Shown piece by piece: positions 5,752 to 61,836 of a stretch of DNA of 64,000 nt. The stretch lies in the IMG/VR virus record IMGVR_UViG_3300046463_000520, positions 34,470 to 98,469 of that record. The stretch is one strand, 5' to 3'. How positions within the stretch are numbered: position 1 is the first letter of the stretch; each line of letters begins with the position of its first letter. The notes below the pieces were generated by a model, which had not been told where the DNA came from, made no database searches, and worked only from the letters and a program-made list of their open reading frames with translations. Source of the DNA: a virus. The position numbers and the translations under genes were made by a program.

Positions 5752-6033
5752 TTACGCTCCCGGCAGCGTGGCCCGGATACCCCATGCGGCGGGCGTGTTG
5801 TCGCCGGTCGTCCAACCCTGTTCGGCCAAGTGGCGCGCGGTGAGCCGGTTCGCGTAGCAGGCGTACCAGAAGTACGACAGGCCGCACGTCGGGAAGTACA
5901 GAAGGACGAACAGAAGGACATGCTTCCAAAGGCCGCGAGCGATCAGCGGCAAACCGCCGAAAAAGAACATCGTCCACGAAAACCCGATTTTGACTTCGCG
6001 CGTAATGCTGTTCTTCTGAAAACGTACATTCAT
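5752..6033 (-). CDS. Small inner-membrane protein
   Basis: A 93-aa protein; ATG at 6033 is chosen for its GGGG ribosome site. It begins MNVRFQKNSITREVKIGFSW and has two hydrophobic segments (about 19-35 and 40-62, the second W-K-H-V-L-L-F-V-L-L-Y-F-P). It then has Y-A-N-R-L-T-A-R-H-L-A-E-Q-G-W, a soluble tail found in DUF2628-like small membrane proteins. A superinfection-exclusion or envelope role is plausible but not shown. Confidence 0.65.
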   Translation of the reverse strand: MNVRFQKNSITREVKIGFSWTMFFFGGLPLIARGLWKHVLLFVLLYFPTCGLSYFWYACYANRLTARHLAEQGWTTGDNTPAAWGIRATLPGA

Positions 6034-6095
6034 GGTCAACCCCGTTAGGTAGTGGTGATACTGCTGATAGTGCCCGGCTCCCGCCGTGCGGATTC

Positions 6096-6332
6096 TTATT
6101 CCCAATCTTTCATCATTTGTTCGGCGTGCTCGATGGCATCCGCCCACGTCCGAATGACGGTGAGCGGCCATGTCGCCCGCTGAAAGTCGCCGCTCGTCTG
6201 CCCGTTGTAGCCTTGCGCGAAAAAGAACGTGCGCTTCTTCGAGTCGCGGATGATCTTTACCCAAAAGCGACGACCGCGAACGTAGTCCGTCGTCTGGTAT
6301 CCCTGCGTGGTCCGTTCCGGTCGCTTCGCCAT
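6096..6332 (-). CDS. Hypothetical early protein
   Basis: A 78-aa basic protein taken from the ATG at 6332 (MAKRPERTTQG); earlier in-frame starts would overlap the small membrane gene upstream. Residues 15-45 form a beta-hairpin-like stretch (G-R-R-F-W-V-K-I-I-R-D) and the end is a helix, W-A-D-A-I-E-H-A-E-Q-M-M-K-D-W. No family recognised. Confidence 0.55.
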   Translation of the reverse strand: MAKRPERTTQGYQTTDYVRGRRFWVKIIRDSKKRTFFFAQGYNGQTSGDFQRATWPLTVIRTWADAIEHAEQMMKDWE

Positions 6333-19000: not shown

Positions 19001-19880
19001 ACTCGACGTGTGGGCGCTCGCGTGGTTCCGCGCGCAACTCGACTGGCTCGAAGTGTCGGACCTTTCGACGGTGCTTGGCGGGTACATGTCGCAATACCTG
19101 CGCACGCAGGCAAAGATTGACGACGGCACGGAACGATGGGTCAAGCTGATTGAACCGCCGACCTACACTGTGAAGGACGCGGCGCTGGCGGCGCTCGAAA
19201 CGGCGATCAAGGGCGGTTTTCTGGTCGATGAAATCATCGGCGAGAACGGCGGCAACGCCTACCCGATGCCGTATCTGCCGGGCGGTTTCCTGTCGAGCGG
19301 CGCGGGCCGGAAAGTCGCCGAACTGCTGTGCGAACAGGTCGGCGAATATATCGAACTGAAGGTCGGCGCGGACAAGGTGCGCTCGCTCAACGGGTACGGC
19401 TCGAACATTCGCCTGTATTACGACAATTGGGGCGATGCCGTGACGCTGGTTGCAAGCGTGTTCTCGGACCGCTGGAAATCGCTGGTTCAGTGGGCGCAGT
19501 CGGTTGAGAAGGTGCGCGCAGCGGACAAGGCAGGCACGGACGTGCCGGGCATTCTCGCCGCCCTGCGCCGGATGCCGGGCGTGCTGTCGGCGGACGTCGG
19601 CACGGTCGAAGCGCGCGAGAAGCGTTACGGCTCGAAGGGGTTCTATACCTACGTGCCGGGCACGTATATCCTGCTCGGCATTTCGCGCGGCTCGTCGCTG
19701 CACGATAAGGTCGCGACGAAGGGCGACGCGGGCTTGCATGGCCGCACGTTCGACCGCGAAACGAACTGCTTCCGCATCACCATCGCCGACGGCGAGAAGT
19801 GGAGCGACGGCGTAGCGGTCGCATCGGTCGATAGTCTGTTCGCGCACATCGGGCAAAACATCGCCGACTATAAGCTGTAA
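13044..19880 (+). CDS. DarB-like antirestriction protein: DNA methylase plus SNF2-type helicase
   Basis: A 2278-aa protein, close to the size of phage P1 DarB, which is packaged in the virion and protects DNA from type I restriction. Residues 10-65 repeat the E-G-x-x-L-L...I-R-E-I-V-E-A-L-G module of the two preceding proteins. Residues about 150-380 form an adenine-methylase fold, with V-L-D-P-S-S-G-T-G-I-F (D174) and N-V-P-F (N239). Residues about 870-1560 form a helicase: G-L-G-K-T (K894), D-E-A-H (1051-1054), and Q-R-N-G-R-G-V-R-Q near 1500. The C-terminal 700 residues are unassigned. Methylase motif IV is N-V-P-F rather than the usual N-P-P-F/Y. It has its own late motif and structured leader. 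Confidence 0.8.
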   Translation: MTTLILDDASNGMASDLARLKLAREGKTLLQERESLTASAADTIRKLKIGKRIREIVEALGLRPAAKKPDAAPVAVRTEPTGEFYPDEGKRTTGQRQKANDAAIALMREIQASGRAVTDEDRAILAKYSGNGGGLVGADGKTGSPHEYYTPKEVAGAMWNLLAELGFNGGSVLDPSSGTGIFTSMRPKSAVMSQVELDQTSGTINGLVNNGPTVTTAVSPFEAFANDTPDEIYDAVITNVPFGDRTKRGGNEKLDSRFQDESLEGYFVQRALQKVKPNGLAAFIVPKAVVSGLGSRDVKLRTNCSLMAEFVGAYRLPNSIFTTAAADVTTDLIVFRKFSRETRRKVEELEAQSPATLKDANILWEPFVSGAFFKTVGRKYILGEEGTTKGKYGEVAAVINTDSISNIVKLIKRFPDSHINWELLDMVPTAPITYTDGDTINKDGATLEMRDGEWVVLDSAQAASKTVLDLADKLSRPLAAVNSRVTFAQAGEYVDAMQNAGRFWDVGAWLTGTVKTVATLAESERETWWQAITAGMAVQELLSEADSVEPQNYVTAYPELAAQLAKVERYATRTVGKAAKLVKDGLLSIQNARRKGEFTALWKGEILANVQDRILSPTQIYEKARYENEDETGFVSVSKLREAMSDFDPLEDDDWCMGADGETVMHANDYYTGSYGRFLKQAEADLAAATDPRVRAKIARQMDRAKERISVVDVADMTFNLFTPHVTMAQKLEFLKTYVSVDIFINDKGEFDIKQSNPGKYASAEEMAAYKAMQRFVKSYLKNQTITTMTKQADAEANPAAEAALMRRIKDITDRAKAQFDSWARANDEIQASLHQKLNDPENLKFIEVPDGTPLDIPNLNVEDFEPHAYQYAACRRYARHFGGVLGFDVGLGKTLTALAATQYAQSIGVKKKTIFVVPNATLTNWQKEAGKAYLNTDDCLFVGVITDKKGKKKVDNNQVKIDLNTIRENRHAKIFMTIEAFKQIPLREETLDAYVEYLAHHDDAYSVENDKSKTESIKQDSLLAEAKDLGSKSGALPYFEDLGVDSLVLDEAHNYKNSKVTSAEFTGAKYLSDPQKSQRGMDMQAKAWFVRGLSDRGDGVVSLTATPVTNSPLEVYSMLTLALGEEEVNNMYGVTGADTFMAAACDIEEREEENIVGKFTATRTFTGLQNAGLLRRLLQTSCLIKTAEDVKADGVDIRVPQAEEISTAVDIGPDNFATLIAYKNEYMEAVKLVKAGGGGPDDKLTASPFNLIRKMTKVINDPEMDKGVFVFKFSDDEKEGALKALLAFNKKKVKEIRDTLDPMLGKEFVTEKSVRDTVTGDFVVQYNTTIQAFAATDANGDNEIRLPSTEYETQEALIKLLEAEGVKPRVKISPKLAAVIANVKKEAAYPRHMGHAKQIIFCDELGLHPKIRLALAQEVGVPLSKIKIVNAVAVDVAGMQDVQDGFNADGEENRYEYVIANKKAEVGINLQKGCQAIHHMTIGWTPDSTHQRNGRGVRQGNTVEKVMVYHYDANGTFDAYKRKIVDIKADWIGALMSGDSQKIKIEGDMSAADYELLANAVGDAEAMETANRAIADRAKREKIQAARVQQIQYVRTIEGANVWLNKFGVTGEDETSGFNAWVNSKIASIRAQVSIIADIKTRQDETESDLMRARLAKKYAEERPKLDAALLVIGGLATPGKIPAERTYRSTLTDEDRASAAYANWKKELTLRTNMRDDSRRAFLQRSEDGYTVDSLDAHARGEAAVVMGTLVRIGSFVENGDALLVVRSGKNRQAGNLYGYNPADQSEIELLKIAKPVFTDKGSARWRSLVEQAVRMDEATIADSDFGGAYGASDPRLYMSMVEDVRDAISVPVPSAPLSKSSFSFKRPYFPIVLDDLTGESGGALAKRIRAEQIDLLDLAKGNKWNVVPRDTRTIGPSLDINVRTQSEAIREYAVAHNLRATEDDLYAINSGLGTRNVVDQLGLRALFFKSLPEGVAASKTPDELDVWALAWFRAQLDWLEVSDLSTVLGGYMSQYLRTQAKIDDGTERWVKLIEPPTYTVKDAALAALETAIKGGFLVDEIIGENGGNAYPMPYLPGGFLSSGAGRKVAELLCEQVGEYIELKVGADKVRSLNGYGSNIRLYYDNWGDAVTLVASVFSDRWKSLVQWAQSVEKVRAADKAGTDVPGILAALRRMPGVLSADVGTVEAREKRYGSKGFYTYVPGTYILLGISRGSSLHDKVATKGDAGLHGRTFDRETNCFRITIADGEKWSDGVAVASVDSLFAHIGQNIADYKL

Positions 19881-20438: not shown

Positions 20439-20774
20439 TCACGAGACGATTCCATAAAAGACGGCCATCGCGCGATTGACCGCAAGCATGGTTTCGTCAT
20501 CGAGACGCCCGACGACCTGCCCGATGTTCTCGCGCGGCACGGCCTGAATCTTATCGACCATGACTTGCGAAGGCTTGTCCAATCCATTCCCCGCGCTCGG
20601 CTCGACCGTGATTCGATACAGCGGCATATCGCGAAGCTCGCTCGTGATAAGCACGATGACGATAGAGGCATGTTCGGCGAACAGGTCCGACTGCACGACA
20701 AGCGCGGGGCGCGGCTTGCCGGTATAGGCCCCTTTCGCGGCGACCGTCACCACGTCACCGCGCATCATTCCCAA
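20439..20774 (-). CDS. mazF: MazF/PemK-type toxin (endoribonuclease)
   Basis: A 111-aa protein of the MazF/PemK/CcdB-fold toxin family: R-G-D-V-V-T-V...G-K-P-R-P-A-L-V-V-Q-S-D, then I-V-I-V-L-I-T-S and a closing helix. Members cleave mRNA at short sequences. Starts at 20774, 20768 or 20765 are possible; the first overlaps the antitoxin gene by 10 bp. With its antitoxin it would act as a plasmid addiction module, matching the role of Phd/Doc in P1. It may alternatively serve in host takeover or anti-phage defence. Confidence 0.85.
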   Translation of the reverse strand: MGMMRGDVVTVAAKGAYTGKPRPALVVQSDLFAEHASIVIVLITSELRDMPLYRITVEPSAGNGLDKPSQVMVDKIQAVPRENIGQVVGRLDDETMLAVNRAMAVFYGIVS

Positions 20775-20977
20775 CCCTCCCGGTCCGCGACGGACTCGAT
20801 GAAATCCATGATTTCCCGCTCGTGCGGGTCATCGCGCGTGAGAAGCGACTGACGGCGGCATTCCTCCGCGAAGCCCGGCGCGCTCGTGTCGGGAACCCAT
20901 ATCTGCACCGGGCGCAGACCCGCGCGGCGCATGGCGTCGCGGCGCTTCGCGACCCGCTCTGAAACTGTCATTCCCAT
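20765..20977 (-). CDS. mazE: MazE-like antitoxin (DUF3018 type)
   Basis: A 70-aa protein with GGGGGATAT before ATG, upstream of and overlapping the toxin as in typical modules. It begins MGMTVSERVAKRRDAMRRAG and then has L-R-P-V-Q-I-W-V-P-D-T, the DUF3018 antitoxin signature. The C-terminal acidic helix (R-E-I-M-D-F-I-E-S) probably wraps the toxin. A palindrome and a -10-like TACTAT directly upstream suggest autoregulation. Confidence 0.8.
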   Translation of the reverse strand: MGMTVSERVAKRRDAMRRAGLRPVQIWVPDTSAPGFAEECRRQSLLTRDDPHEREIMDFIESVADREGWE

Positions 20978-43474: not shown

Positions 43475-44677
43475 TCAAGCTCGTTTAGCGATGACGTCGG
43501 CGGCGCGCGAGCGCGTGAAGTCGCGATACTTACGCGTCGTCACCATGTCGCCCACCTTGTCTTTCGCGGGGTCATACAGCGTGCCGGGCGCGCTGCTCGC
43601 GATGAATTCGGCGGCAAGCGCGGCGCGCTCGTCGGGCGTCAGGCTCGTGACGGCGGATTGTGTTGCGCGGGCGCGCTGGTCGGCGTCGCTGTCGTCGGCA
43701 AGCATCGGGGCCTGCGGCTTCGGCTTCGCCGACTCTGAATAGGACACGTCGATGGCCTCGCCCTTCTCCCATATCGCCATCGTGTACCCGGCGCGCGACG
43801 ACTTGATGCTGCCCTTCGCTACCCTGTCGGTCACATAGCGCGCCGTCGCTTCTGCGCGTTCCGGGTCGGTCTGAATCCAATTCACGGCAAGGCGGTCTGA
43901 TATGCCGTGCTCGCGCAGACTCGCGAAAAGCGCGCTCTCGCGGATGCGCGCTTCGTCGTCGTCTTCCTCGATGTTCAACTGCGGATTCTCGGCAACGTCG
44001 AAGCGAATCGTCGTCACCTTGCGCGCGCGGCGCGTGTAGTGCGGCGTTATGAGAATGTTCGAGTGCCGGTTGATTTCGGCCACGCTCTTTTTGATGACGA
44101 AGGCATTGAAATGCCGGAACTCGTCGTACATGTCGGCGGTCGCGCCAAGTAGCTCGCGCCATGTCTCGACGGGAATATCGCCGGTCGATTTCACGCCTTT
44201 GAACCGCAGGCAGTTTTCGTACAGGGCAAGGCCATAGGCGCTCGTAAATTTGCGCTGGATGCCCATATTGATAATCGCGTACACGTCTGGATTCGCAAGG
44301 TTCTCCGCGAGCACGTCGGAATAGGCATAGATGCACATTCCATCGACAAGCGTCGCCTCGCCTAGCAACTGCGTCGCCGTCCACGCGCGGCGCGGCTTAC
44401 CAGTGTTCTTCAGGCGGTCGAATGTGACGCCGGTCGTGGTGAGCCTTTGCAGGGCTTCCTTCACTTGGGCGTCGTTATGGCTGTCGCGCCATACAATCGC
44501 GCTCAAAAAGCTGACGGGTATCTCGTGCTTTTTCTTCGAGCGCAGGCTGTCGTAAGCGTTCATCAAGAGCACATTCACTAGCTTGCGCTCAACCAGTGTC
44601 AGATTTCCGGTTATGTGGATAGTCGCGGCGTGCTTGCGCACCTCCCGCGTCCCTGCATCCGTGTCCGTGATTTTCAT
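43475..44677 (-). CDS. Rep_3-type plasmid replication initiator
   Basis: About 400 aa from ATG at 44677 (GGGGACGCC leader); an in-frame ATG at 44692 adds five residues. The first winged-helix domain runs about 20-150 (I-T-G-N-L-T-L-V-E-R-K-L-V-N-V-L-L) and the second about 160-260, with I-N-M-G-I-Q-R-K-F-T-S-A-Y-G-L-A-L-Y-E and N-R-H-S-N-I-L-I-T-P-H-Y-T-R-R-A-R-K-V, typical of Rep_3/RepB initiators. The C-terminal 130 residues are extra. Iterons lie directly upstream (44762-45004) and an inverted repeat covers the gene's start region. It should set copy number by binding both. Confidence 0.85.
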   Translation of the reverse strand: MKITDTDAGTREVRKHAATIHITGNLTLVERKLVNVLLMNAYDSLRSKKKHEIPVSFLSAIVWRDSHNDAQVKEALQRLTTTGVTFDRLKNTGKPRRAWTATQLLGEATLVDGMCIYAYSDVLAENLANPDVYAIINMGIQRKFTSAYGLALYENCLRFKGVKSTGDIPVETWRELLGATADMYDEFRHFNAFVIKKSVAEINRHSNILITPHYTRRARKVTTIRFDVAENPQLNIEEDDDEARIRESALFASLREHGISDRLAVNWIQTDPERAEATARYVTDRVAKGSIKSSRAGYTMAIWEKGEAIDVSYSESAKPKPQAPMLADDSDADQRARATQSAVTSLTPDERAALAAEFIASSAPGTLYDPAKDKVGDMVTTRKYRDFTRSRAADVIAKRA

Positions 44678-44720
44678 GGCGTCCCCGTCCATTCAGTAGG
44701 AAAACCATTGTGACGGCAAA

Positions 44721-44751
44721 TAGCATGTTTTGCAATCAGGCAAACATGCTA
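44721..44751. promoter_or_regulatory. Inverted-repeat operator of the initiator gene
   Basis: Perfect 10-bp arms TAGCATGTTT (44721-44730) and AAACATGCTA (44742-44751) with an 11-bp centre. Each half resembles the iteron core (AAACTATGCT), as in other Rep_3 plasmids, where Rep dimers bind a split iteron to repress rep. It sits 44 bp before the start. Confidence 0.75.
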
Positions 44752-44761
44752 AGACGGGGTT

Positions 44762-45004
44762 CCCCCTAAACTATGCTGTTTCGCGCGACCTCCCCCTAAA
44801 CTATGCTGTTTCACTGTGGATAACATTCGAAATAGGGAGCCTAATCTCGTTGCAAAACAATGAGTTAAGACCGTTTTCGCGCGTTATAAATGGGTCTAGG
44901 GCCGGTTCCCCCTAAACTATGCTGTTTCCCCCAAAACTATGCTCTTTCGAGTGCTCGGCTCCCCAAATGTTATGCCTTTTCATCCCAAAAACTATGCTGT
45001 TTGC
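44762..45004. repeat. Plasmid origin: six iterons
   Basis: Core AAACTATGCTGTTTC preceded by CCCCCT occurs perfectly at 44762-44782, 44792-44812 and 44908-44928. Degenerate copies lie at 44928-44948 (CTCTTTC end), 44961-44981 (AAATGTTATGCC) and 44984-45004. All point the same way. The 95 bp between copies 2 and 3 are AT-richer and hold a DnaA box; another AT-rich, CAACAA/TTGTTG-containing stretch follows at 45045-45110 and may be the melting region. With the Rep_3 gene this forms a plasmid replicon. Nothing in 45110-45290 looks coding. Confidence 0.85.
44815..44823. promoter_or_regulatory. Perfect DnaA box in the origin
   Basis: TGTGGATAA, the exact complement of the consensus TTATCCACA, lies 3 bp after iteron 2. 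It implies that host DnaA assists the Rep protein in opening the origin. Confidence 0.8.
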
Positions 45005-45290
45005 GCCCGCAAACCCTTACTGGATAAGGCTTCGCGCCGCCTAAAGGTTTTAAAGGTGTTGTCTTTCTAAAAAACAACAACAACCTCTGTTGTCGTCTTT
45101 CAGAAAGATTTCCCGACCCGAAAACCGAAAAACCGCCGCTGTTGTGCTCACGCCATTGCGCGATAGGCTTTCTTATGTCATATGGCATTACGATATTCGT
45201 AACCGAATGTTTCTGTTCGCTGACACACGGCGAGCGCGCTGCCGCGCCGGGAGAATTGGACTATGCTCAACACACAAGGGGAACGCGGCA

Positions 45291-45530
45291 ATGTCTGACC
45301 TGACGGAAGAACGTATGCAAGCCGAAGTGGACCGATATTTGGCAGAGCGCGAGAAGTTCATCGCAGAGCGCATCAAGCTCTCGGAAGAAGCCATTAAACT
45401 TCGCTTCGAAGGCTTGAAGCTCGACCGCGAGCGCAAGTCATATCCGTTCGTGCTGTTCTTCTCGGGCATGGGCGCGGCGACGGCGTTCATCGGCGCGGCG
45501 GTCGCGGTCATCAAGTATCTGCTCTACTGA
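45291..45530 (+). CDS. Coiled-coil small membrane protein
   Basis: A 79-aa protein with AAGGGGAACGCGGCA before ATG. Residues 1-50 form a strongly charged coiled coil (E-E-R-M-Q-A-E-V-D-R-Y-L-A-E-R-E-K) and 52-75 a membrane helix (F-V-L-F-F-S-G-M-G-A-A-T-A-F-I-G). It is the only plus-strand gene in the plasmid block. It might tether plasmid or replication proteins to the membrane or act in exclusion; unproven. Confidence 0.6.
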   Translation: MSDLTEERMQAEVDRYLAEREKFIAERIKLSEEAIKLRFEGLKLDRERKSYPFVLFFSGMGAATAFIGAAVAVIKYLLY

Positions 45531-45549
45531 CCTGCGGCCCGAAAAGAAC

Positions 45550-45574
45550 AAAGCCCGGCATCGCCGGGCTTTTT
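45550..45574. terminator. Bidirectional terminator
   Basis: AAAGCCCGGC (45550-45559) and GCCGGGCTTT (45563-45572) with a 3-base loop, T-rich on both outer sides. It ends the plus membrane gene and the minus H-NS/ParA operon. Confidence 0.85.
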
Positions 45575-45575
45575 C

Positions 45576-45935
45576 TTATGCTGCGCGCCGTTCGTCGGCG
45601 CGCTCGATTAGGAACTCGTCGCGGTTGTCCGCCTCGGCAAGCCATTTCGGGGCCTTGCCGCGCCCGCTCCACGTCGCGCCGCTTTCCGGGTCACGGTAGA
45701 GCGGCGTCGCGGCGGCGCGCGGCGTCTTCGTGACGAACGTCTTGTCGGCCTTGCCGACCTTCTTCGGCGGCACCTGTTGCGTCTTCACGAACCCGACGTC
45801 TTGCGGCGACAGGTCGTAAAGCGCGATCAACTCGCGGCAGGTCTTCGCGGCGTCGGCGGCTTCTTCCACGCGCGCGGCTTCGATTTCGGCGGCAAGCTCG
45901 GCTTGCTTGGCGAGTAGTTCGCGGTACTTGGACAT
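45576..45935 (-). CDS. H-NS family nucleoid protein
   Basis: A 119-aa protein with an N-terminal coiled coil (K-Y-R-E-L-L-A-K-Q-A-E-L-A-A-E-I-E-A-A-R) and the C-terminal H-NS DNA-binding motif, Y-R-D-P-E-S-G-A-T-W-S-G-R-G-K-A-P-K-W-L. Its W-S-G-R-G-K-A-P-K-W-L is the beta-proteobacterial variant. Plasmid-borne H-NS proteins silence AT-rich transferred DNA and reduce fitness cost; here the AT-rich centromere-like region is a nearby target. Last gene of the ParA transcript. Confidence 0.85.
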   Translation of the reverse strand: MSKYRELLAKQAELAAEIEAARVEEAADAAKTCRELIALYDLSPQDVGFVKTQQVPPKKVGKADKTFVTKTPRAAATPLYRDPESGATWSGRGKAPKWLAEADNRDEFLIERADERRAA

Positions 45936-45961
45936 GCGGTGAGGCTCCTTCTGGTGGTGGT

Positions 45962-46309
45962 TCAGTCTTTGTCGTATTGCTTCAGCAATTCCTCAACGCG
46001 GTCGGCGATGGCTTTGAGCGCAAGCTGTTGCATCGAGCGCGCGCCCGGCACGATTTCCGCGCAGTGCTTCAGTTTTTTGTGTAGCTCGTCGGATAGCCGC
46101 ATGTTGAACGGCTGTTGCAGCTTGGGGTGCGCATCCGCCCACGGCTTAGGCTTCTTCGGTTGCAGGTCGAGCACGCCTTGCACGTCGGCGGGGTGTTTCA
46201 GGACCATGACGCCCGACGGCGGCTTGCCCTGCGCGGGCGGGTCTTCGAGCATTACGACGTCTTCGGCGCGCAGAACCGCGCCTTGCTTGAGCATGTAGCG
46301 GGTGGTCAT
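45962..46309 (-). CDS. Partition-operon small protein 2
   Basis: A 115-aa protein starting in an ATGA overlap. The N-terminal half is Pro/Val-rich; the C-terminal half has F-N-M-R-L-S-D-E-L-H-K-K-L-K-H-C-A, a ribbon-helix-helix-like strand-helix, and a closing helix. It is a candidate DNA-binding partner of ParA alongside the 144-aa protein. Confidence 0.5.
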   Translation of the reverse strand: MTTRYMLKQGAVLRAEDVVMLEDPPAQGKPPSGVMVLKHPADVQGVLDLQPKKPKPWADAHPKLQQPFNMRLSDELHKKLKHCAEIVPGARSMQQLALKAIADRVEELLKQYDKD

Positions 46310-46740
46310 TTTTGTAGCTCCCTGAGTTTCTTTTCGACCCATTCGGACAAGGCTTCTTTAACCATCTTTTGCTTGGACTTGCCGCCCGGCATGTTCTGCC
46401 CGATCCAGACCATTTTCGCGTCGAGCACGGTCGAATAGACCATCGAGAACTTCGCCGTATCGACGTCGGGCAGTTCGTCCCACGGCATCGGTTTGGGCGG
46501 CGGGGCGGTTTTCCGGGCCGCTGGCGGCTTGGCGACGCGCGCGACGGGCGCTGAGTCATCCGCAGGGGCGGCAGGCGCTTCTAGGCCCCTTTCCGTAATT
46601 TCCTCAATCTGAGGGTTTAGCGCGGCGGCGGGCGGCGGCGTGGGCTTGTCGCCGGGCACCGGGGCGGGCTGAGTGCCCTTCGCGAGATAGGCTTCGAGCG
46701 CTGCCTTTTCCTGTTCGCGCTTGGTCTGTTGCTCGCTCAC
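46306..46740 (-). CDS. Partition-operon small protein 1 (candidate centromere binder)
   Basis: A 144-aa protein directly after parA, with a 4-bp overlap. The N-terminal 75 residues are Pro/Ala-rich and disordered. The C-terminal 60 contain F-S-M-V-Y-S-T-V-L-D-A-K-M-V-W-I-G and K-Q-K-M-V-K-E-A-L-S-E-W-V. A flexible arm plus a small DNA-binding end is the build of type Ib centromere proteins such as ParG. DNA binding is inferred. Confidence 0.5.
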   Translation of the reverse strand: MSEQQTKREQEKAALEAYLAKGTQPAPVPGDKPTPPPAAALNPQIEEITERGLEAPAAPADDSAPVARVAKPPAARKTAPPPKPMPWDELPDVDTAKFSMVYSTVLDAKMVWIGQNMPGGKSKQKMVKEALSEWVEKKLRELQK

Positions 46741-47447
46741 TGCACCGCCTCCGCATAGATTTCGCGCACTTCGTCTTGCGCCGGGCGCGTGTCACGGTTT
46801 GCGCGCTTTTCGAGCACGCCTTCACCGTCGAACGCCCAATGCTTATAGGGGTCGCGGTCGCGCATGACGGCGAACATCGGGGCGAACTCGTGATAGCCGA
46901 AGTGCTTGAAAATGTCGTCGTAGAAATCGAGCACGTCTTTCTTCTTCGCGTGCGTGGACGCCTGCGCCGGGAAGATCAGCGCGCTCAGGTCGGCATTGAT
47001 GCCCTTCGCCTCCTTCACCGCGTCATGCAGCGCGGCGAGCCGCACCGTGTCATTGCGGCTCGTGCGGCACGGCACGATGACGCGGCGCGCGGCGAGTAGC
47101 GCAAGCCGCGTGTCCGTGCTCGCCTGCCCTTCGCCGCCGACGTCCACGATAATCAGGTCGTAATGCGGCTCGCGCGCCTTCAGCTTGTGCAGCAAGTCGG
47201 GGCCGTGCATCACGTCCGAGTCGATAAACGGCAGGTCGTCGCGAAAGCCCGCGTCGCCGGGCCTGCGCTCGCGCTCCCGCTCGCCGCGCTCGTGCCGCAC
47301 GATCATGGCCGCGCGCAGGGAATGGCCGCTGTCGGCATCGACTAGCAGAACCTTCTTCCCTTCCAGCGTGGCGGCGACGCCTAGATTCAGGGCCGTGGTG
47401 GTCTTCGATACCCCGCCCTTCGTGCTCGCGACGACAACAATTGTCAT
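46737..47447 (-). CDS. parA: ParA-type partition ATPase
   Basis: A 236-aa protein with the deviant Walker A K-G-G-V-S-K-T-T (10-17), V-L-L-V-D-A-D-S and I-I-V-D-V-G-G. The short N-terminus lacks an HTH, so it is of the type Ib (ParF-like) class. Such ATPases move plasmid copies apart with a small centromere-binding partner encoded next to them, as here. AAGGAC precedes ATG, and the repeat-rich 47506-47967 region lies just upstream. Confidence 0.85.
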   Translation of the reverse strand: MTIVVVASTKGGVSKTTTALNLGVAATLEGKKVLLVDADSGHSLRAAMIVRHERGERERERRPGDAGFRDDLPFIDSDVMHGPDLLHKLKAREPHYDLIIVDVGGEGQASTDTRLALLAARRVIVPCRTSRNDTVRLAALHDAVKEAKGINADLSALIFPAQASTHAKKKDVLDFYDDIFKHFGYHEFAPMFAVMRDRDPYKHWAFDGEGVLEKRANRDTRPAQDEVREIYAEAVQ

Positions 47448-47505
47448 GTCCTTACCCCATATGTTTTTGTCGGTATGGTCGCGAGATTATCAGAACTTCA
47501 ATATA

Positions 47506-47967
47506 CGGTCGAGTTAAAGTAGGTTCATACCAGAACGGTAAACGCCCGGCCCTGATAGTCATGGACCGGCCTTAACAGTCTGGTACTTACCGGTATTAGC
47601 TGGTATCACTCGCGCGGCCCTTCGACCGGCCCGGCCCTGACAGTCAAAACCAAGCCAAAACCTTTCTTTTCAAAACCCGACCCTTTCTATTGAAGACTGT
47701 TCGATGGTTTTAAATTAAAAACGGTCCGGTCTTTATTTTTTTTATTCAGTTCAGTTCAGTTTTTGACTTGAATCCATTATTCAGTCGAGATTTATTCAGA
47801 ACAGAACAGGAAAAGACGAGACAGAACAGAGAAAGACCGGAAAAGACGGTCGAGAATAGTCTAAGAGGGTCGAGAACGGGACAAAACAGGGCGGGACAGT
47901 CGAGAATTCGACCGTTCGGGCGGGTCCGGGCCGGGCCTTAACTTGACTGTCTGGTATTAGCTGGTAT
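47506..47967. repeat. AT-rich repeat region, candidate partition site (centromere)
   Basis: The 574-bp gap 47448-48021 holds no gene. It contains direct repeats GTCGAGAA with two or three preceding bases (47782, 47847, 47867, 47897; a partial at 47506). It also has two copies of TATTAGCTGGTAT (47594-47606 and 47955-47967) with CTGGTA flanks, three TTCAG units (47745-47760) and repeated CAGAACAG/AAAGACGG. Composition is far more AT-rich than the surroundings. Position directly upstream of parA fits parC/parS for the ParA system. It also holds that operon's promoter. Confidence 0.55.
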
Positions 47968-48021
47968 AAGACTGTACAGTTAAAGCCCGGTAAGTCGGGG
48001 CAAAGCCTTGTCAGGTAAGGC

Positions 48022-48189
48022 TTAGATGGGTCTGAACTGGCTTCGACCGCACTTCACAAAGGCGTCCGTGCGGTGCTTGCACGCGGCTCCAATCGGCATA
48101 TCGGGACCGTTGTCGTCCGTGCAGGATTGCATCACGAGCACGGCGAACACGAGCACGGCGGCGAGTAGGTAATCGGCGGCTTTCGTCAC
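48022..48189 (-). CDS. Small lipoprotein
   Basis: A 55-aa protein from a GTG overlapping the preceding TGA. It has a membrane-type stretch (Y-L-L-A-A-V-L-V-F-A-V-L-V-M-Q-S-C) ending in a lipobox-like Cys, then a 28-residue mature part with two further Cys. Last gene of the long recombination operon. Function unknown. Confidence 0.5.
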   Translation of the reverse strand: MTKAADYLLAAVLVFAVLVMQSCTDDNGPDMPIGAACKHRTDAFVKCGRSQFRPI

Positions 48190-48608
48190 GGCTTCGGCTC
48201 CATATGGCGGCATCCGGCGCATTTAGAATCAGTCGCGCGTTTATCGTAGCGACAGTCTTCGCTCATTATGTGCGGCACTTCGACGTATTTCGCGGCCTTT
48301 CCCCATTGTCCGAATCCATCTACGCACGGCTCGAAATAACCATCCTGCGCGAGATAAGTCGGCGATTTATCGGCGCGATTATGGCAACCGTATTGCGCAG
48401 GCGGCGCACCGCGCACTGGCGGCGAAATGACGTCGGGGCGCTGCGCGTGCTTGATGGCCGCGAGCGCGGTCGGGCGAATCTCGCACTCGTCGCCGCACAG
48501 CACGCAATGCAAGTGCTCCCCGAAAAGCCGCTTGGGCGTGCCGGGGCCGTGCTCGGGGCATTGCCACGCGTCGCGGTCTTCGACCGTCGGCATCAGGACG
48601 TCTGACAT
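48186..48608 (-). CDS. Cys-rich zinc-binding-like protein
   Basis: A 140-aa protein from ATG at 48608, overlapping the previous gene by 16 bp. H-C-V-L-C-G-D-E-C-E-I-R-P-T-A-L-A-A-I-K-H near residue 35 and C-A-G-C-R-H at the C-terminus look like zinc sites. Cargo or nuclease function cannot be told. Part of the recombination operon. Confidence 0.5.
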   Translation of the reverse strand: MSDVLMPTVEDRDAWQCPEHGPGTPKRLFGEHLHCVLCGDECEIRPTALAAIKHAQRPDVISPPVRGAPPAQYGCHNRADKSPTYLAQDGYFEPCVDGFGQWGKAAKYVEVPHIMSEDCRYDKRATDSKCAGCRHMEPKP

Positions 48609-48955
48609 TGCGCGGCCTCCCGGTATGCCTTCGCGCGCTTCACGCCCACGCGAAAGACGGTCATCAGGTTGTGGGCGAACGGCACTTTCAGCACGTTGTC
48701 GTAAAACTCGCCTTTGCCGGTCACGAATCCGACGTCGCACTTGCTGCGCTTGCGGGCGAACTCGTCATAGGCGAATTCGCTGCCCCAATATTCCTGCTCG
48801 CGCTTGTTCAACTCGTGCCACTTGACCGTGTACGAATCGCTGTCGGGAATGTCGCAAATGCGCATCCACGCCGGGTTCTTCCGGCAGAACTCGACCGCGT
48901 GCGCGGATGCCTGCTCCGGGGTGAAATACTCGCCAGTGTTCTCGCGCCCGTTCAC
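48593..48955 (-). CDS. Hypothetical protein of the recombination operon
   Basis: A 120-aa protein starting with GTG in a GTGA overlap with the ParB-like gene. It has mixed charge and is Tyr/Trp-rich in the middle (K-W-H-E-L-N-K-R-E-Q-E-Y-W-G-S-E-F-A-Y-D-E-F). No family recognised. Confidence 0.55.
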   Translation of the reverse strand: MNGRENTGEYFTPEQASAHAVEFCRKNPAWMRICDIPDSDSYTVKWHELNKREQEYWGSEFAYDEFARKRSKCDVGFVTGKGEFYDNVLKVPFAHNLMTVFRVGVKRAKAYREAAQCQTS

Positions 48956-49809
48956 GCGGCCTCCTTCAGCGCGGCGGCTTCGTGCGCTTCGAGAAGGGCG
49001 CGCATGAGTCCGACGGGCACGTAGAGTAATTCGTCGTCTAGCGACTCGCGGATACACATGGCGTAATCGACCGGGCTATCCGGGCTGAAAAACGCGCCCA
49101 CGGCATCCGTCATGCGGCGCACGACCTTGGGCGGCGGGGCTTTCGACACGCTCGAACCCGTCAGTTTTCCACCCTTCGCGCCCGCCAGTTTCGCCGCGAG
49201 CACGGCACCGGCCTGCTCGCCGTGCTTGCGCAGGGCGTCGAGCGCGACCTTGGCGGAAATCTTGTCGGCTTCCAGAAGCGCCTGAACGTCGGCGTTCGCG
49301 TTCGCGAGCATCAAATTCTGCTCGACGTAGCTTGGCGACATGCGCGCGCGCTCGGCAATGCGCGCGACCGACCAACCGTAGGCGGCGCGGCGCTTGTAGA
49401 TGCGGCCCTGTTCGAGCCGCGTCAGGTGCAACTGGCTCGAACTGTTGAGCACTTCAAAGTCGCGGTCTTCGTCGTTGCCGTTGAACTGCTCGCACTTCAC
49501 GAGCGCGATTTCCTCGCCTTCGGCGATCAGTTCCTTGTAGGCCGTCAGGCGGCAATGGCCTTCGACCACGTAGATTTTGTCCGCCACGCGCACGCGCAGC
49601 GGCGGCATGATGACGCCCGCGCGAATCGCTTCTTTCATGCGGTCGATGTGCGAGCGCGTGCGGGGCGACAGGTTTTCCATGTCGCGCCCGTTGAAACCCG
49701 GCTCAATCTCGATGTTGCGCGGGTCAAGCAGGTAGTCCGTCACCTTCTTGATGCCGATTTCCGTCTGCGCCTTGTCTTCGGCGATTTTCTTCAGACTGAC
49801 GAGATTCAT
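48952..49809 (-). CDS. ParB-like protein
   Basis: A 285-aa protein with a ParB N-terminal fold (P-P-L-R-V-R-V-A-D-K-I-Y-V-V-E-G-H-C-R-L-T-A-Y) and a KorB/ParB-type HTH (S-V-A-R-I-A-E-R-A-R-M-S-P-S-Y-V-E-Q-N-L). The box normally reading G-E-R-R-x-x-A is G-H-C-R-L-T-A here. It is not beside parA but in the recombination operon after rdgC, so it may act on replication or transcription rather than segregation. Confidence 0.75.
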   Translation of the reverse strand: MNLVSLKKIAEDKAQTEIGIKKVTDYLLDPRNIEIEPGFNGRDMENLSPRTRSHIDRMKEAIRAGVIMPPLRVRVADKIYVVEGHCRLTAYKELIAEGEEIALVKCEQFNGNDEDRDFEVLNSSSQLHLTRLEQGRIYKRRAAYGWSVARIAERARMSPSYVEQNLMLANANADVQALLEADKISAKVALDALRKHGEQAGAVLAAKLAGAKGGKLTGSSVSKAPPPKVVRRMTDAVGAFFSPDSPVDYAMCIRESLDDELLYVPVGLMRALLEAHEAAALKEAA

Positions 49810-50732
49810 GCTGCGTCTCCCTGCGCGAACATGTCATCGAAGGGCAGATAGCCGTCCATCAGTTCCGCGACCGCCGCAATCAGTTCGCCATACTCGCCCG
49901 CCATCAGAAGCATGTCGGCGTCGTGCGCGGTCGGGTCGAGCGCTTCTTTCTTCGATGGCTTCAGCACGTCGCAGGGCGTCACGCGCTTGATTGCGCCCGC
50001 GCCGGTCAGGACGAAGCTCACGCGGTCGTCATAGGTCATCGCGAGCGTGACGACGTTGCGGCCCGACTCGATTAGGCGGGTGGTGTCTTCGGCGTTCAGC
50101 GTGATATTCGAATACTTGACGCTCGCGCCCGCGTCTTCGCTCGCGGCGAACACGGTCGAGTCGGCGTCGATAGAGAAGCCGTCGGGCGCTTCGTGTTCGG
50201 CCATCCACTGCGTCATCACCGCGACCGGTTGCGAGACATAGCGGACCGATTTCAGCGCAAAGGGCGTCTGAACCGCGCGCAGCAAGCCGCCCAATACCAT
50301 GTCGGCGACGCTCGCCGATGCCGTGTCGATGGCGATCAACCCGCGCTTCGGCGAAATCCAGACCCGGATATCGCGCGAGACTTCGAACGCCTTCACGATC
50401 AGTTCCGCGTGGGCGAACTCCTTCAATTCCTTCCGTTGCTTGCGGCCCGGCTTGAAGCCCTGCTGCTTTTCCAGTTCCGCCGCGAGTCGGTCGGTTTCGG
50501 CCTGCACGACCTTCGCCGGAAGAACCTTCTTCGAGACACGGAACACGGCGAAGTGTTCGCCTTCCACGGACCATACGAAGCGCTCGTCACGGATATGCGC
50601 GAAGCCGCCCGACGACTCCATAGACGGCGTGCAGGGCATATGCGCGAAGGTCGCGAGCGCAGCGGCGATGCCGTCGGAGTCGAGCGGGAAGGCGGGCGCG
50701 CGGTACAGCGTGAGATTTTTGAACCAAGACAT
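49806..50732 (-). CDS. rdgC: RdgC-type recombination-associated protein
   Basis: A 308-aa protein of full RdgC length. M-S-W-F-K-N-L-T-L-Y-R opens it, F-A-H-I-R-D-E-R-F-V-W-S-V-E-G-E-H-F-A lies near 45, and the L-P-A-K-V-V segment follows. RdgC is a DNA-binding ring protein that restrains RecA and host nucleases; phage copies may protect replicating DNA ends. Co-transcribed with ERF and exonuclease genes. Confidence 0.85.
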   Translation of the reverse strand: MSWFKNLTLYRAPAFPLDSDGIAAALATFAHMPCTPSMESSGGFAHIRDERFVWSVEGEHFAVFRVSKKVLPAKVVQAETDRLAAELEKQQGFKPGRKQRKELKEFAHAELIVKAFEVSRDIRVWISPKRGLIAIDTASASVADMVLGGLLRAVQTPFALKSVRYVSQPVAVMTQWMAEHEAPDGFSIDADSTVFAASEDAGASVKYSNITLNAEDTTRLIESGRNVVTLAMTYDDRVSFVLTGAGAIKRVTPCDVLKPSKKEALDPTAHDADMLLMAGEYGELIAAVAELMDGYLPFDDMFAQGDAA

Positions 50733-50762
50733 GGCGTTAGATAGTTTTCGTTATACGTTGTA

Positions 50763-50846
50763 TTACCGGAATGCCCGCCGCGCGGCGGCGGCGAGCACTA
50801 CGAAGGCGGCGACGAGAAAAACGATGTTCGGAAGCGGCAGCGGCAT
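50763..50846 (-). CDS. 27-aa membrane peptide
   Basis: A tiny frame that starts in a TGATG overlap with the exonuclease stop and fills part of the only gap in the operon. The peptide begins MPLPLPNIVFLVAAFVVLAA and is one membrane helix with a basic end. Coupled start and composition favour a real peptide; function unknown. Confidence 0.4.
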   Translation of the reverse strand: MPLPLPNIVFLVAAFVVLAAAARRAFR

Positions 50847-51538
50847 CAGTGGTATTGGTCGATAGGAACGTCTCGCGACGTCGGGACGAAACCGCGCTTG
50901 CGACCGAATTCAAGCAGGCGTTCCGTGTAGTTGTTGACGACGTTGTTGAAGTCGGCAAGCTCGTAGGCCATCTGTTCGATGTAGTTATCGTCGCGCTCGA
51001 CACGCTGGCGATACCAGTCCGCGCCGATGGTCGCGAACTGCGGGCAGTACACGCAGAAGTCCCACCACTTGCGACCGGACAACCACAAATTGCCCTGCAC
51101 TTGATCCATGTAGAACGAAATGTCTTCGTTCAAGTAGATTTCGCGCACGCTAGTGGCACCAATCAGGCACTTGTATTCCGCGCCGCCGTCGGCTCCGATC
51201 CAACCGTCGGCGCTCGCGCCGAAGGCCCGGTCGTCGGTCAGAACCATGCCGACCGGCTTCACGCGCAGGCCGATATCAGCCATGTGCCGGACGCGCGCCA
51301 TTGGTTCGAGCCGTTGCCCGCGTTTCATCGCCCACGTTTCATACGTGCGGTCTTCGGACATAAGGCCGGTCGCGCGCTCACCGGCAAGGTGAAACGCATA
51401 GGCGGCGGCAGTGTCGGTCAATTCGCGCGTATTGGTGCGCGCGCGCTGACGTGCGAGCCGGAAGTTACTCGCGGTCACAACGCCAGCACGCGCAGCAAGC
51501 CAAGTGTCGGTTCCCTGTTCGCACTCGACAATCAGCAT
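50846..51538 (-). CDS. YqaJ-type (lambda Exo-like) exonuclease
   Basis: A 230-aa protein. Q-G-T-D-T-W-L-A-A-R-A-G-V-V-T-A-S is the usual start of YqaJ/lambda-exonuclease proteins. G-A-S-A-D-G-W-I and E-Y-K-C supply the conserved D...E-x-K active site. It resects duplex ends to leave single strands for the annealing protein encoded 2 bp upstream. Together they form a phage recombination pair useful in replication and repair. Confidence 0.85.
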   Translation of the reverse strand: MLIVECEQGTDTWLAARAGVVTASNFRLARQRARTNTRELTDTAAAYAFHLAGERATGLMSEDRTYETWAMKRGQRLEPMARVRHMADIGLRVKPVGMVLTDDRAFGASADGWIGADGGAEYKCLIGATSVREIYLNEDISFYMDQVQGNLWLSGRKWWDFCVYCPQFATIGADWYRQRVERDDNYIEQMAYELADFNNVVNNYTERLLEFGRKRGFVPTSRDVPIDQYH

Positions 51539-54322: not shown

Positions 54323-54347
54323 AAAAAAAAAGCCCGCGCGGGCGGGC
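54323..54347 (-). terminator. Terminator of the repressor gene
   Basis: On the minus strand GCCCGC and GCGGGC arms with a 4-base loop are followed by nine T (plus-strand A-run 54323-54331). It lies 49 bp after the repressor stop. Confidence 0.85.
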
Positions 54348-54395
54348 CAATGTATGAGATATTACGAAACACTTTGGAAGCAGCGCTGTAAGGTC

Positions 54396-55106
54396 TTACC
54401 GGCGAAGTAGGAAGAAGCGTCCGATCACTTTGACGTCTTCTGGTGCAAGGTCTTCGTCGGGGTAGCGCTGCTTATCGGGATTGTCGGAAGTCAGGACGAT
54501 ACGGCCATTGGAGCGCAGCAAGACCCGCTTGATAAGCAAGCCGGTCGGCGTCTCAAAGGCATAGATATTGTTTGTGAGTAGTCGCGTGTTGCTGGTGTCA
54601 AAGAGAACTAGGTCGCCATGTACCAAAAAGTTAGCCATGCCGTTTCCATCGGCGATAGCCGCTTTAATAGCCGTGTGGTCTGTGACGCCCTTTTCCTGCA
54701 AGTCGCTCGACAGGACGAACGCTCGCTTCGTCGCTGCAATCTCGTCAACGTCCCGCTGGTCCGTGCTGCCGCCGCCGCACGACCCGCGCGAGTCCAATAT
54801 CTCCACCTCAAAAGGCATTGGCAGGTTCTCTATCGCATACAGAGAACGCTCAAGTGTCGCGGCCTCTCGCGTACCCGTCATCGCCTCAGTAGGTTCGCCT
54901 TCCCCTGTCTGAAGCCATAGAGCACTGACGCCAAGGGCTTGGGCTATCAGAGCTAGGCTCCGACTGTTGGAAGCGATGTTTTGTTCAAGACTGGATATGG
55001 TCGGTTGCGCTAAACCCGCCCGTATCGCCAGTTCTCGCTGGCTTATGCCTATTGCTGTGCGTCGTGCCTTGATACGGTCGCCAACAGTGGTGGTGGTGGT
55101 GTCCAT
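54396..55106 (-). CDS. S24-type phage repressor lacking the catalytic serine
   Basis: A 236-aa protein. Residues 8-65 form an XRE-type HTH (I-S-Q-R-E-L-A-I-R-A-G-L-A-Q-P-T-I-S-S-L-E-Q), as in CI. A linker with C110-G111 (R-G-S-C-G-G-G) fits the Cys-Gly cleavage sites of such repressors. The C-terminal half aligns with the LexA/CI peptidase: V-H-G-D-L-V-L-F-D and the Lys in G-L-L-I-K-R (K193). The G-D-S-M nucleophile box reads G-N-G-M (154-157), so the Ser is Gly156. It should bind operators but may not self-cleave in the SOS response. It is divergent from the Cro-like gene at 55373. Confidence 0.8.
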   Translation of the reverse strand: MDTTTTTVGDRIKARRTAIGISQRELAIRAGLAQPTISSLEQNIASNSRSLALIAQALGVSALWLQTGEGEPTEAMTGTREAATLERSLYAIENLPMPFEVEILDSRGSCGGGSTDQRDVDEIAATKRAFVLSSDLQEKGVTDHTAIKAAIADGNGMANFLVHGDLVLFDTSNTRLLTNNIYAFETPTGLLIKRVLLRSNGRIVLTSDNPDKQRYPDEDLAPEDVKVIGRFFLLRR

Positions 55107-55225
55107 AGGTTCCGTGAGTGAGTCTTTCTTCTTATAAGTGTGGTCTGAAACAGCGTATCGAAATACCTATATTTCTTGTTATCGGCCCGAATCTACCACA
55201 GCTTTGGTGATTTCTTAACAGATTC

Positions 55226-55248: not shown

Positions 55249-55296
55249 ACGAATCATCATTTGATAGGAATTCCGATGTTTCGCGCAGGTAACGTT

Positions 55297-55325
55297 TGCC
55301 TTTCGTAATCAGAATTGCTATATTT
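55297..55325 (+). promoter_or_regulatory. Promoter of the Cro-like gene
   Basis: -35 TTGCCT, 17-bp spacer, -10 TATATT on the plus strand, 48 bp before the ATG. A weaker overlapping pair is TTGCTA and TAGATA. Confidence 0.65.
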
Positions 55326-55372
55326 CGTCCACGCAGTAGATATGAACTTATTTACAAGTGAACGGGTAAAAA

Positions 55373-55606
55373 ATGCAGGTTACAAACGACCGCCCGCTGC
55401 ACGAACGGCTGGCAGACCTTCAGGCCATCGGCCTGACGCAGAAGGAAATCGCTGAGTACCTTGGGGTGCGGCAACCGACAGTAAGCAACCTGCTGAAGCC
55501 GCTTGCTCCGGGGATGAAATCCCGCCGTTATTCGGCGGGCGTAATGGCAGGCGCGGCGCGCGCCGAAGCGGTGCATTCGGTGCTGCTCGCGCGGCTGGCA
55601 GCATAA
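55373..55606 (+). CDS. Cro-like small HTH regulator
   Basis: A 77-aa protein with L-A-D-L-Q-A-I-G-L-T-Q-K-E-I-A-E-Y-L-G-V-R-Q and P-T-V-S-N-L-L-K, a complete helix-turn-helix, followed by a basic, Ala-rich tail. Divergent from the S24 repressor, in the position of Cro. It likely represses the repressor gene and starts the lytic cascade that runs downstream. Confidence 0.75.
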   Translation: MQVTNDRPLHERLADLQAIGLTQKEIAEYLGVRQPTVSNLLKPLAPGMKSRRYSAGVMAGAARAEAVHSVLLARLAA

Positions 55607-55621
55607 GGTTAGGGACAGGCG

Positions 55622-56167
55622 ATGAAAGGTGTAACGCAGAAGGTCAAGCCGAAGAAGGCGAAGAAGCAATATGTGCGCAAGCCGAAGAACGGCATGGCCG
55701 CGCTCGATACCCTTGGTCGCCTGTCGTTCAATGCGGGCCTTGTCGAAGCGATGACGGCGGCGCTGCCCGACGAACACCGCGACAAGGTTGAGATTGGTTA
55801 CGGGATCAATCTCGACCGGCTCGTGAAGGGCAAGGCGAGCATGGATGACATTGAGGAACTCGGGTTCCTCGCGAACGTGACGGTCATCCTGTGCGAGACG
55901 CGCTTCGGCGGTTTCGGAAGCGAGCACGAGCAACTTGCGATTGCCGGGCAACTGGCGGTCGTCAATGCGTTCCGGCGTGGACTGAAGGGCGGAAACTTCG
56001 GCCTGTCCGGTCCGGAAATTCAGGCGGTGCGCGGCGTGTACGAACTGCACGTCGAACAAATGAGGGTATGCAGTCAAGCGCACCTGATTGCGGCAACAAC
56101 TGAAGTCGAGCGTCGCCAGAACATCGGCGAAGTCATCCGGCTTGTGCCGGTGAAGCAAGCGGCGTAG
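55622..56167 (+). CDS. Hypothetical early lytic protein
   Basis: A 181-aa protein with a very basic N-terminus (K-V-K-P-K-K-A-K-K-Q-Y-V-R-K-P-K) and a helical rest: G-I-N-L-D-R-L-V-K-G-K-A-S, then A-I-A-G-Q-L-A-V-V-N-A-F-R-R-G. It lies directly after the Cro-like gene. Phage lytic operons often carry a regulator of this size here; no family recognised. Confidence 0.6.
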   Translation: MKGVTQKVKPKKAKKQYVRKPKNGMAALDTLGRLSFNAGLVEAMTAALPDEHRDKVEIGYGINLDRLVKGKASMDDIEELGFLANVTVILCETRFGGFGSEHEQLAIAGQLAVVNAFRRGLKGGNFGLSGPEIQAVRGVYELHVEQMRVCSQAHLIAATTEVERRQNIGEVIRLVPVKQAA

Positions 56168-56268: not shown

Positions 56269-56574
56269 ATGCCTAACGATGCTCAAATGGAACAAAGTTC
56301 CGAAAAACAAGTAGCCGGTCACGCACAAGTGGTGGACGTTACGGGGTGTCTGCCGCTCGATTACTGCGCGCGTGCGTGTGGTGTCGCAAATGCCGTGCCG
56401 TTCCTCACGTCAGAAGGCGTGCTCGCCGATGACGGTTTGCCCTTCAAAAACTTTCTCGATTGGGAATACTTCGCGCTCGTGCAAGGCGCGGACGGTCACA
56501 CGGAAACCCTTCTCACGCCGCTCGGACAGGTCTGGTTCGGCAAGCGGTTCCACAAGGCGCGCGTCGCGCACTAA
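56269..56574 (+). CDS. Possible antirepressor-like small protein
   Basis: A 101-aa protein with GCAGGGGATTCA before ATG. The C-terminal T-L-L-T-P-L-G-Q-V-W-F-G-K-R-F resembles the end of KilAC-type antirepressor domains, while the N-terminal 60 residues (L-P-L-D-Y-C-A-R-A-C-G-V) are unrecognised. Antirepressors inactivate the repressor by protein contact, which would matter if this repressor cannot self-cleave. Tentative. Confidence 0.45.
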   Translation: MPNDAQMEQSSEKQVAGHAQVVDVTGCLPLDYCARACGVANAVPFLTSEGVLADDGLPFKNFLDWEYFALVQGADGHTETLLTPLGQVWFGKRFHKARVAH

Positions 56575-60587: not shown

Positions 60588-61039
60588 TGGAAATCATGCT
60601 CACGAAGCTGCCGGGCGGCGCGCTGGCGGCGATGGACGAAGGTCAGGCGGACCTGCTCAAGCATTGGCCTGCCGATACGGTCGTGAAGTGCAAGCTGTCG
60701 CGGGTGCGCAACCCGAAGTTTCACCGCAAGTTTTTCGCCCTGATTACGGTCGGCTTCGAAGCCTTCGAGCCGGAACAGGAATACAAGGGCTACGTCATCG
60801 AGAAGAACTTCGATGCGTTTCGCGACGACGTAATCATCATGGCCGGGCATTACCACGCGACCATGCGGCCCGACGGCGTTATGCGCCTGCGCCCGAAGTC
60901 GATTTCGTTCGCAAAGATGGATCAGGACGCATTCGAAGACCTGTACTCAAGGGTCGCGAATGTGCTGTTGCAACGGGTTCTCACGCGCTACACGCGAGAA
61001 GACTTGGACACGGTAGTCAACCGCATCGCGGGGTTCTAA
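60587..61039 (+). CDS. DUF1367 family protein
   Basis: A 150-aa protein in a TAATG overlap. L-K-H-W-P-A-D-T-V-V-K-C-K-L-S-R-V-R-N-P-K-F-H-R-K-F-F-A-L and P-K-S-I-S-F-A-K-M match DUF1367, commonly found in lambdoid nin-like regions. Its biochemical role is unknown. Confidence 0.75.
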   Translation: MEIMLTKLPGGALAAMDEGQADLLKHWPADTVVKCKLSRVRNPKFHRKFFALITVGFEAFEPEQEYKGYVIEKNFDAFRDDVIIMAGHYHATMRPDGVMRLRPKSISFAKMDQDAFEDLYSRVANVLLQRVLTRYTREDLDTVVNRIAGF

Positions 61040-61044
61040 GAACA

Positions 61045-61836
61045 ATGGTCAAGACGGCACGCAAGGTCCGCAAACTGTCCGCACAGTACCGCACGACGGG
61101 GCGTTCGAAGGTCGCAATCACGCCCGCCGAACTGCGCGAAAGCATGACCGAAACGCAGGTCGAATCGACGGTCAAGCAAGCGCTCACGCGCTTCAAGCGC
61201 AATCACAGCGCGCCCGCCGAACTCGAAGCGCTGCGTTACAAGCTCGTTCAAGCGCGCGTCATGCAGGGCATGATGGCCGTGGAAGCGGCGGAAAAGTTCG
61301 GCTACGCGAACTCGTCGCAGATTTCGCAGATTGAATCCGGCGAGCGCAAGACGCCGAACGACTGGAAGTTCCTGCGCCGCGCCGCCGAAGTGTATTCCGT
61401 GTCCGTGGACTGGCTTCTCGGCCTGTCGCCGAACATGGAACACGACGCGCGCGCCGCGCATCACTTCGCGCTGCTGCGCGGGACCGAAGACGTGATTCAG
61501 CGCATGTCGCTCGCGATCACGACCGCGATGGTGCATACCGCGCAGGAAACGCAACCGCTCATGGACGAAGTGCAGCGCGTGCTGTCCGCCGTGGACGAAC
61601 TGAACGTGCGCTTTGATAAATTCGCCGCCCGCCCTGAGTTTGACGACTATCCGGGCGCGGCTCCCGTCGATGCCGCCGTGAAAGCGCTGTACGAAGCGAC
61701 GCAACCGATGCGCTTCAAGCTGAAGAAGTATCGCGGCATCGAAAGCTACATGTCTGAAGTCACGCGCGGCACCTTGCCGCCGATTGAATACCTCACCGAA
61801 CGCTACGCCCAAGGCGAACTAGGACTCGACGCATGA
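61045..61836 (+). CDS. XRE-family HTH regulator with long C-terminus
   Basis: A 263-aa protein. A basic N-terminus (1-30) and helical region precede an XRE HTH (about 70-125; E-A-A-E-K-F-G-Y-A-N-S-S-Q-I-S-Q-I-E-S-G-E-R). The C-terminal 130 residues are helical with no recognised domain. It could be the regulator of the late or early promoter family described here; this is unproven. Its stop overlaps the next ATG. Confidence 0.65.
   Translation: MVKTARKVRKLSAQYRTTGRSKVAITPAELRESMTETQVESTVKQALTRFKRNHSAPAELEALRYKLVQARVMQGMMAVEAAEKFGYANSSQISQIESGERKTPNDWKFLRRAAEVYSVSVDWLLGLSPNMEHDARAAHHFALLRGTEDVIQRMSLAITTAMVHTAQETQPLMDEVQRVLSAVDELNVRFDKFAARPEFDDYPGAAPVDAAVKALYEATQPMRFKLKKYRGIESYMSEVTRGTLPPIEYLTERYAQGELGLDA

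Follow-up and report, generated by a model that had tools for sequence, protein, structure and literature searches.

A CI-like repressor of an apparent phage-plasmid with glycine in place of the S24 catalytic serine

Self-cleavage of CI/LexA repressors connects DNA damage to prophage induction. The locus described here raises the question of how a phage repressor of this type works, and how it is switched off, when glycine stands where the nucleophilic serine is expected. The window, i.e. the whole stretch of 64,000 nucleotides analyzed, comprises bases 34470-98469 of a 98,469-base IMG/VR record (IMGVR_UViG_3300046463_000520) classed as virus. Its positions 54396..55106 (minus strand) hold an intact open reading frame for a CI-like repressor of 236 aa with an N-terminal helix-turn-helix and an S24-fold C-terminal domain, as indicated by Pfam (HTH_3 1.1e-8; Peptidase_S24 3.2e-10, over cut-off) and by the predicted structure (mean pLDDT 83.5). 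The best solved matches to this structure were LexA (Z 13.9), lambda CI (Z 12.7) and UmuD' (Z 12.0), and the top Foldseek match was phage 186 CI. Codon GGC at 54639..54641 (minus strand) encodes Gly156, surrounded by A-D-G-N-G-M-A-N-F as against G-x-S-M in S24 repressors. When a profile of the C-terminal domain that includes the window repressor was aligned with LexA, the G-x-S-M column fell on Ser119 and the lysine column on Lys156 (LexA numbering as counted on the printed alignment), which confirms the replacement of the catalytic Ser that an earlier note had read from the sequence. The other elements listed in that note are likewise found in the translation: G164-D165-L166-V167 downstream of the altered G154-N155-G156-M157 box, Lys193 at the catalytic Lys site (54528..54530, minus strand) and Cys110-Gly111, a scissile-type dipeptide within a conserved GSCGG (54774..54779, minus strand). 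The repressor therefore shares with lambda CI, D3 CI and LexA the helix-turn-helix, the S24-fold C-domain, the catalytic Lys and the Ala/Cys-Gly dipeptide of the linker, and differs from them in having Gly for the catalytic Ser. Since this Ser is essential, it falls outside the type as a self-cleaving enzyme.

Further relatives were gathered from viral contigs by a motif scan and by profile scans. Of the named phage repressors the D3 type comes closest, at only about 34% identity to the window repressor. Among some 60 aligned relatives the catalytic column holds Ser, as in the D3 and F10 repressors, the exceptions being four proteins with Gly and a very distant one with Asp. The four Gly repressors are divergent, the three others being 40-53% identical to the window protein: those of IMG/VR 3300028024_000006 (53%, Gly codon GGG), IMG/VR 3300046616_000326 (40%) and pBVIE05, a plasmid of Burkholderia vietnamiensis G4 whose repressor is the closest one on a plasmid (42%, box G-D-G-M). 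Although the window repressor comes from a single metagenome-derived record, the same Gly in three other records, one of them an isolate plasmid, and in two different codons (GGC and GGG) excludes a sequencing error and leaves next to no chance for an assembly error or a private mutation. Two further proteins of the same clade, 69% identical to each other, have G-D-S-G, i.e. they keep Ser and have Gly for the following Met. This sub-lineage (L064:6001-6684 and L083:6040-6687) uses two Ser codons, AGT and AGC, and the Met that it has replaced is nearly invariant elsewhere. An intact G-D-S-M with a TCN Ser codon was found in five records of four distinct types. The argument that GGC is one base away from the Ser codon AGC is thus weak, because near relatives use TCN and one Gly member GGG. 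The four Gly proteins and the two with G-D-S-G group together as one altered-box clade (support 93/91), to which a clade with intact G-D-S-M is sister; the tree does not decide between one and two origins of Gly (p-AU 0.26). Two scans for relatives in contigs of 85,000 bacterial genomes found none. The very distant S24-like repressor with Asp at the Ser site (L073, IMGVR_UViG_3300046516_000522, match 6001-6285) also has Arg at the Lys position and is without the Cys/Ala-Gly site, and is possibly another, fully degenerate case. By alignment and tree, a small clade of Rep3-type phage-plasmids has inherited Gly in the place of the catalytic Ser.

The virus appears to be a phage-plasmid, as it combines phage genes with a Rep3-family replication initiator (43475..44692, minus strand) and a ParA-like partition ATPase (46737..47447, minus strand), and the record has no match to a tyrosine integrase (PF00589). 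An N15-like telomere phage was considered and rejected, there being no protelomerase (PF16684) match. ERF, a YqaJ-type recombinase, RdgC and a MazEF pair are also encoded in the record. All five near-complete altered-box records are 88-98 kb long and carry the Rep3 initiator and ParA and no tyrosine integrase. Rep3 was present in 5/5 of these and in 0/4 of the intact-Ser records tested, an association that counts as one event because it coincides with a single split of the tree, and ParA was found in both groups alike.

The gene surroundings contain, by pattern only, the parts expected of a CI/cro switch. Within the 267-bp divergent region lie an operator-like perfect 16-bp palindrome, GAAATACCTATATTTC (GAAATA-N4-TATTTC, 55160..55175), and two degenerate copies of it (55267..55282 and 55311..55326). 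The second copy overlaps the -10 element of a promoter-like site for the rightward early operon (TTGCCT-17-TATATT, 55296..55324, plus strand), which stands just 5' of a gene for a small helix-turn-helix protein, Cro-like by position (55373..55606, plus strand). A terminator-like hairpin with a T run, also a pattern match only, follows just 3' of the repressor gene (54331..54348, minus strand). The divergent cro-like gene and the pattern-predicted operators on the early promoter resemble the arrangement of the lambda/D3 type. The operon continues with a conserved early protein, phrog_20828 (55622..56167, plus strand), syntenic in relatives, and with a gene for a stand-alone protein of 101 aa resembling the KilAC antirepressor C-domain (56269..56574, plus strand). 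Throughout this phage-plasmid family the phrog_20828 gene is flanked by the cro-like gene and the KilAC-like gene, and its product is possibly a part of the immunity switch.

The earlier note stated that the repressor, if the replacement is real, cannot self-cleave in the SOS response. The Ser-to-Gly replacement is real and fixed in the lineage, so that canonical Ser/Lys self-cleavage should, by strong inference, be impossible and the usual DNA-damage route probably cannot switch this repressor off; the first half of the statement stands as observed and the second as deduced. Two of the structure matches, 1jhh and 8s7g, are laboratory Ser-to-Ala LexA, a direct parallel to Gly156. We consider it quite likely that this is a natural self-cleavage-dead CI which keeps lysogeny by blocking the early promoter that its operators overlap. 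Acting in a phage-plasmid to maintain lysogeny, it would occupy the operators in the divergent region and so block the promoter serving the cro-like, phrog_20828, KilAC-like and replication genes. The S24-fold C-domain would serve in oligomerization, and with Gly for the nucleophile no RecA-stimulated self-cleavage would take place, making it a natural counterpart of the Ser-to-Ala mutants of LexA and CI made in the laboratory. If Gly156 rules out self-cleavage, release of repression has to act on the intact repressor, either through a protein partner or through stochastic loss of the repressor. The one candidate partner in view is the KilAC-like product; its simplest role would be that of a feed-forward lock which acts after the operon has fired.

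Could the KilAC-like protein instead be the actual switch for induction, a dedicated antirepressor that binds the uncleavable repressor and triggers lytic growth as Tum and the Gifsy antirepressors do? The KilAC-like nature of this protein, suggested in the earlier note, seems probable: the phrog_63 antirepressor profile matches the window protein at 0.0072 and the best relative at 6e-7, PF03374 (KilAC/ANT) matches one relative at 0.0022 while the window protein itself is without a Pfam match, and the structure predicted for it has KilAC proteins among its best fold matches (E 0.004-0.01, probability 1.00). The gene always adjoins the immunity region, and in the altered-box clade its product has an additional N-terminal part, the intact-Ser records having the shorter form. 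However, the gene is syntenic in 10/10 family members, whether their repressor has Gly, Ser-Gly or the intact Ser-Met, and is therefore not a response to the loss of Ser. A close Ser-type relative without the gene (L001) had at first suggested that it was gained upon Ser loss, which is ruled out by the shorter form in five closer Ser-type records. It is also the third gene of an operon that the repressor should silence, no promoter-like site of its own was found, and the LexA box CTGT-N8-ACAG has no exact match in the 98-kb record, one-mismatch matches being at chance level, so that a LexA-controlled antirepressor was rejected and the gene cannot alone sense a trigger. In addition, the functions of KilAC domains are mixed, and binding of this one to the window repressor is hypothetical. 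The earlier suggestion that such a gene substitutes for self-cleavage is thus not supported, given its presence beside intact-Ser repressors and inside an operon that should be silenced. A KilAC route to induction is possible, the comparative data do not favor it, and we regard a dedicated switch as doubtful. The protein could reinforce induction and is a candidate amplifier.

A natural self-cleavage-dead CI, the reading preferred here, also has to be reconciled with what the protein has kept. G108-S-C-G-G112 and Lys193 are invariant in 6/6 members of the altered-box clade, in whose C-domains 37/138 positions are invariant. A hypergeometric estimate that scatters invariant sites at random gives a chance of about 3 in 10,000 that all six named positions are invariant, an exaggerated figure, as structure makes invariant sites cluster. 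One might expect a simply dead protease to lose its scissile site, and the pseudo-active site may therefore retain some function. The conservation suggests a continuing role for the cleavage loop and the pseudo-active site, be it in loop docking, oligomer state, contact with RecA or contact with an antirepressor. RecA filaments could titrate the repressor off DNA via the kept loop, or the repressor could act as a RecA decoy, and in either case it would still respond to SOS without being cut. This agrees with the retention of GSCGG and Lys193 and with the use of Ser-to-Ala LexA in the RecA complex 8s7g (by its title), from which it follows that loss of Ser does not prevent RecA binding. Its weakness is that RecA binding of the window repressor is hypothetical and that the effect would depend on repressor copy number relative to filament capacity, and we think it improbable. 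We give very little credence to its particular form, an SOS switch turned non-proteolytic in which the loop docks, activated RecA binds and the repressor is reversibly released or sequestered and not destroyed; if true, DNA damage could be sensed by a prophage carried on a plasmid with its repressor being spared.

The invariant loop might alternatively be the substrate of a separate S24 protein, for instance LexA or UmuD of the host or the repressor of a co-resident phage, that cleaves it in trans at Cys110-Gly111. All members have the scissile-type site, but in a pure substrate Lys193 would be dispensable, and it too is invariant; moreover, each of the ten records searched has exactly one S24 protein. 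A phage-encoded partner protease was therefore not found in these records, a second S24 protease on the phage was rejected, and cleavage in trans seems to us highly improbable. Self-cleavage by another nucleophile, e.g. the invariant Cys110 or Ser109, can practically be set aside, as both residues are just as invariant in relatives with a normal Ser and so are not compensatory, while Gly156 is the sole residue that is invariant within the Gly group and missing from its nearest relatives, so that no compensating nucleophile is visible; no S24 enzyme is known to use such an alternative nucleophile.

Repressors that are not cleaved and are inactivated by antirepressors have precedents in Gifsy, 186 and N15 (PMC3121763; PMC10432266). 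The window repressor resembles this class in its incomplete cleavage apparatus, Ser being the missing part, and no antirepressor gene under a LexA box was found with it in the 98-kb record. Coliphage 186 CI, whose C-domain has this fold too (2fjr/2fkd), is inactivated by the antirepressor Tum and not cut, according to a Tum paper cited in PMC3121763 and PMC10432266. In contrast to 186, the window repressor keeps most of the active-site surroundings and no LexA-controlled antirepressor gene was found in its record. In the TelN phage-plasmids (N15-type) self-cleaving and non-cleavable repressors fall into separate groups (PMC10432266). They are like the window virus in being phage-plasmids whose repressor family includes both cleaved and uncleaved kinds, whereas the window virus has no protelomerase match, replicates by Rep3 as judged from its genes, and has a full-length S24 repressor minus one residue. 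The Gifsy repressors GfoR and GtgR are not cleaved during induction (PMC3121763); they are about 136 aa long and without the C-domain which the window repressor retains. The closest likeness is Bcep1808_7714 of pBVIE05, with the same Gly, gene order, KilAC-like gene, Rep3 and ParA. It is annotated only as "putative phage repressor", and nothing further on it was found in the literature searched.

Non-cleavable phage repressors are thus known (186, N15, Gifsy), and what is new is the loss of the nucleophile alone in a full S24 repressor. A search of the open-access literature with a few phrasings found no report of a naturally Ser-less S24 phage repressor. The loss of only the nucleophile beside an intact sister lineage with an otherwise same immunity region makes a clean natural comparison, which could address how a temperate phage-plasmid is induced without an SOS cut and what purpose a kept pseudo-active site serves.

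Several other features of the window were recorded. Rep3, ParA, a ParB-like protein, RdgC, YqaJ and ERF form a block at 43475-51538, with the order of the recombination genes as in pBVIE05. A second helix-turn-helix regulator (61036-61836, plus strand; HTH_31, N-terminal part like phrog_8/phrog_4) has a long non-S24 tail, and the helix-turn-helix gene Bcep1808_7702 of pBVIE05 is similarly placed. The pair of MazE-like antitoxin and PemK/MazF toxin at 20439-20977 (minus strand) fits plasmid maintenance, and positions 13044-19880 (plus strand) hold an open frame of 2278 aa whose product starts MTTLILDDASNGMASDLARLKLAREGKTLLQERESL.
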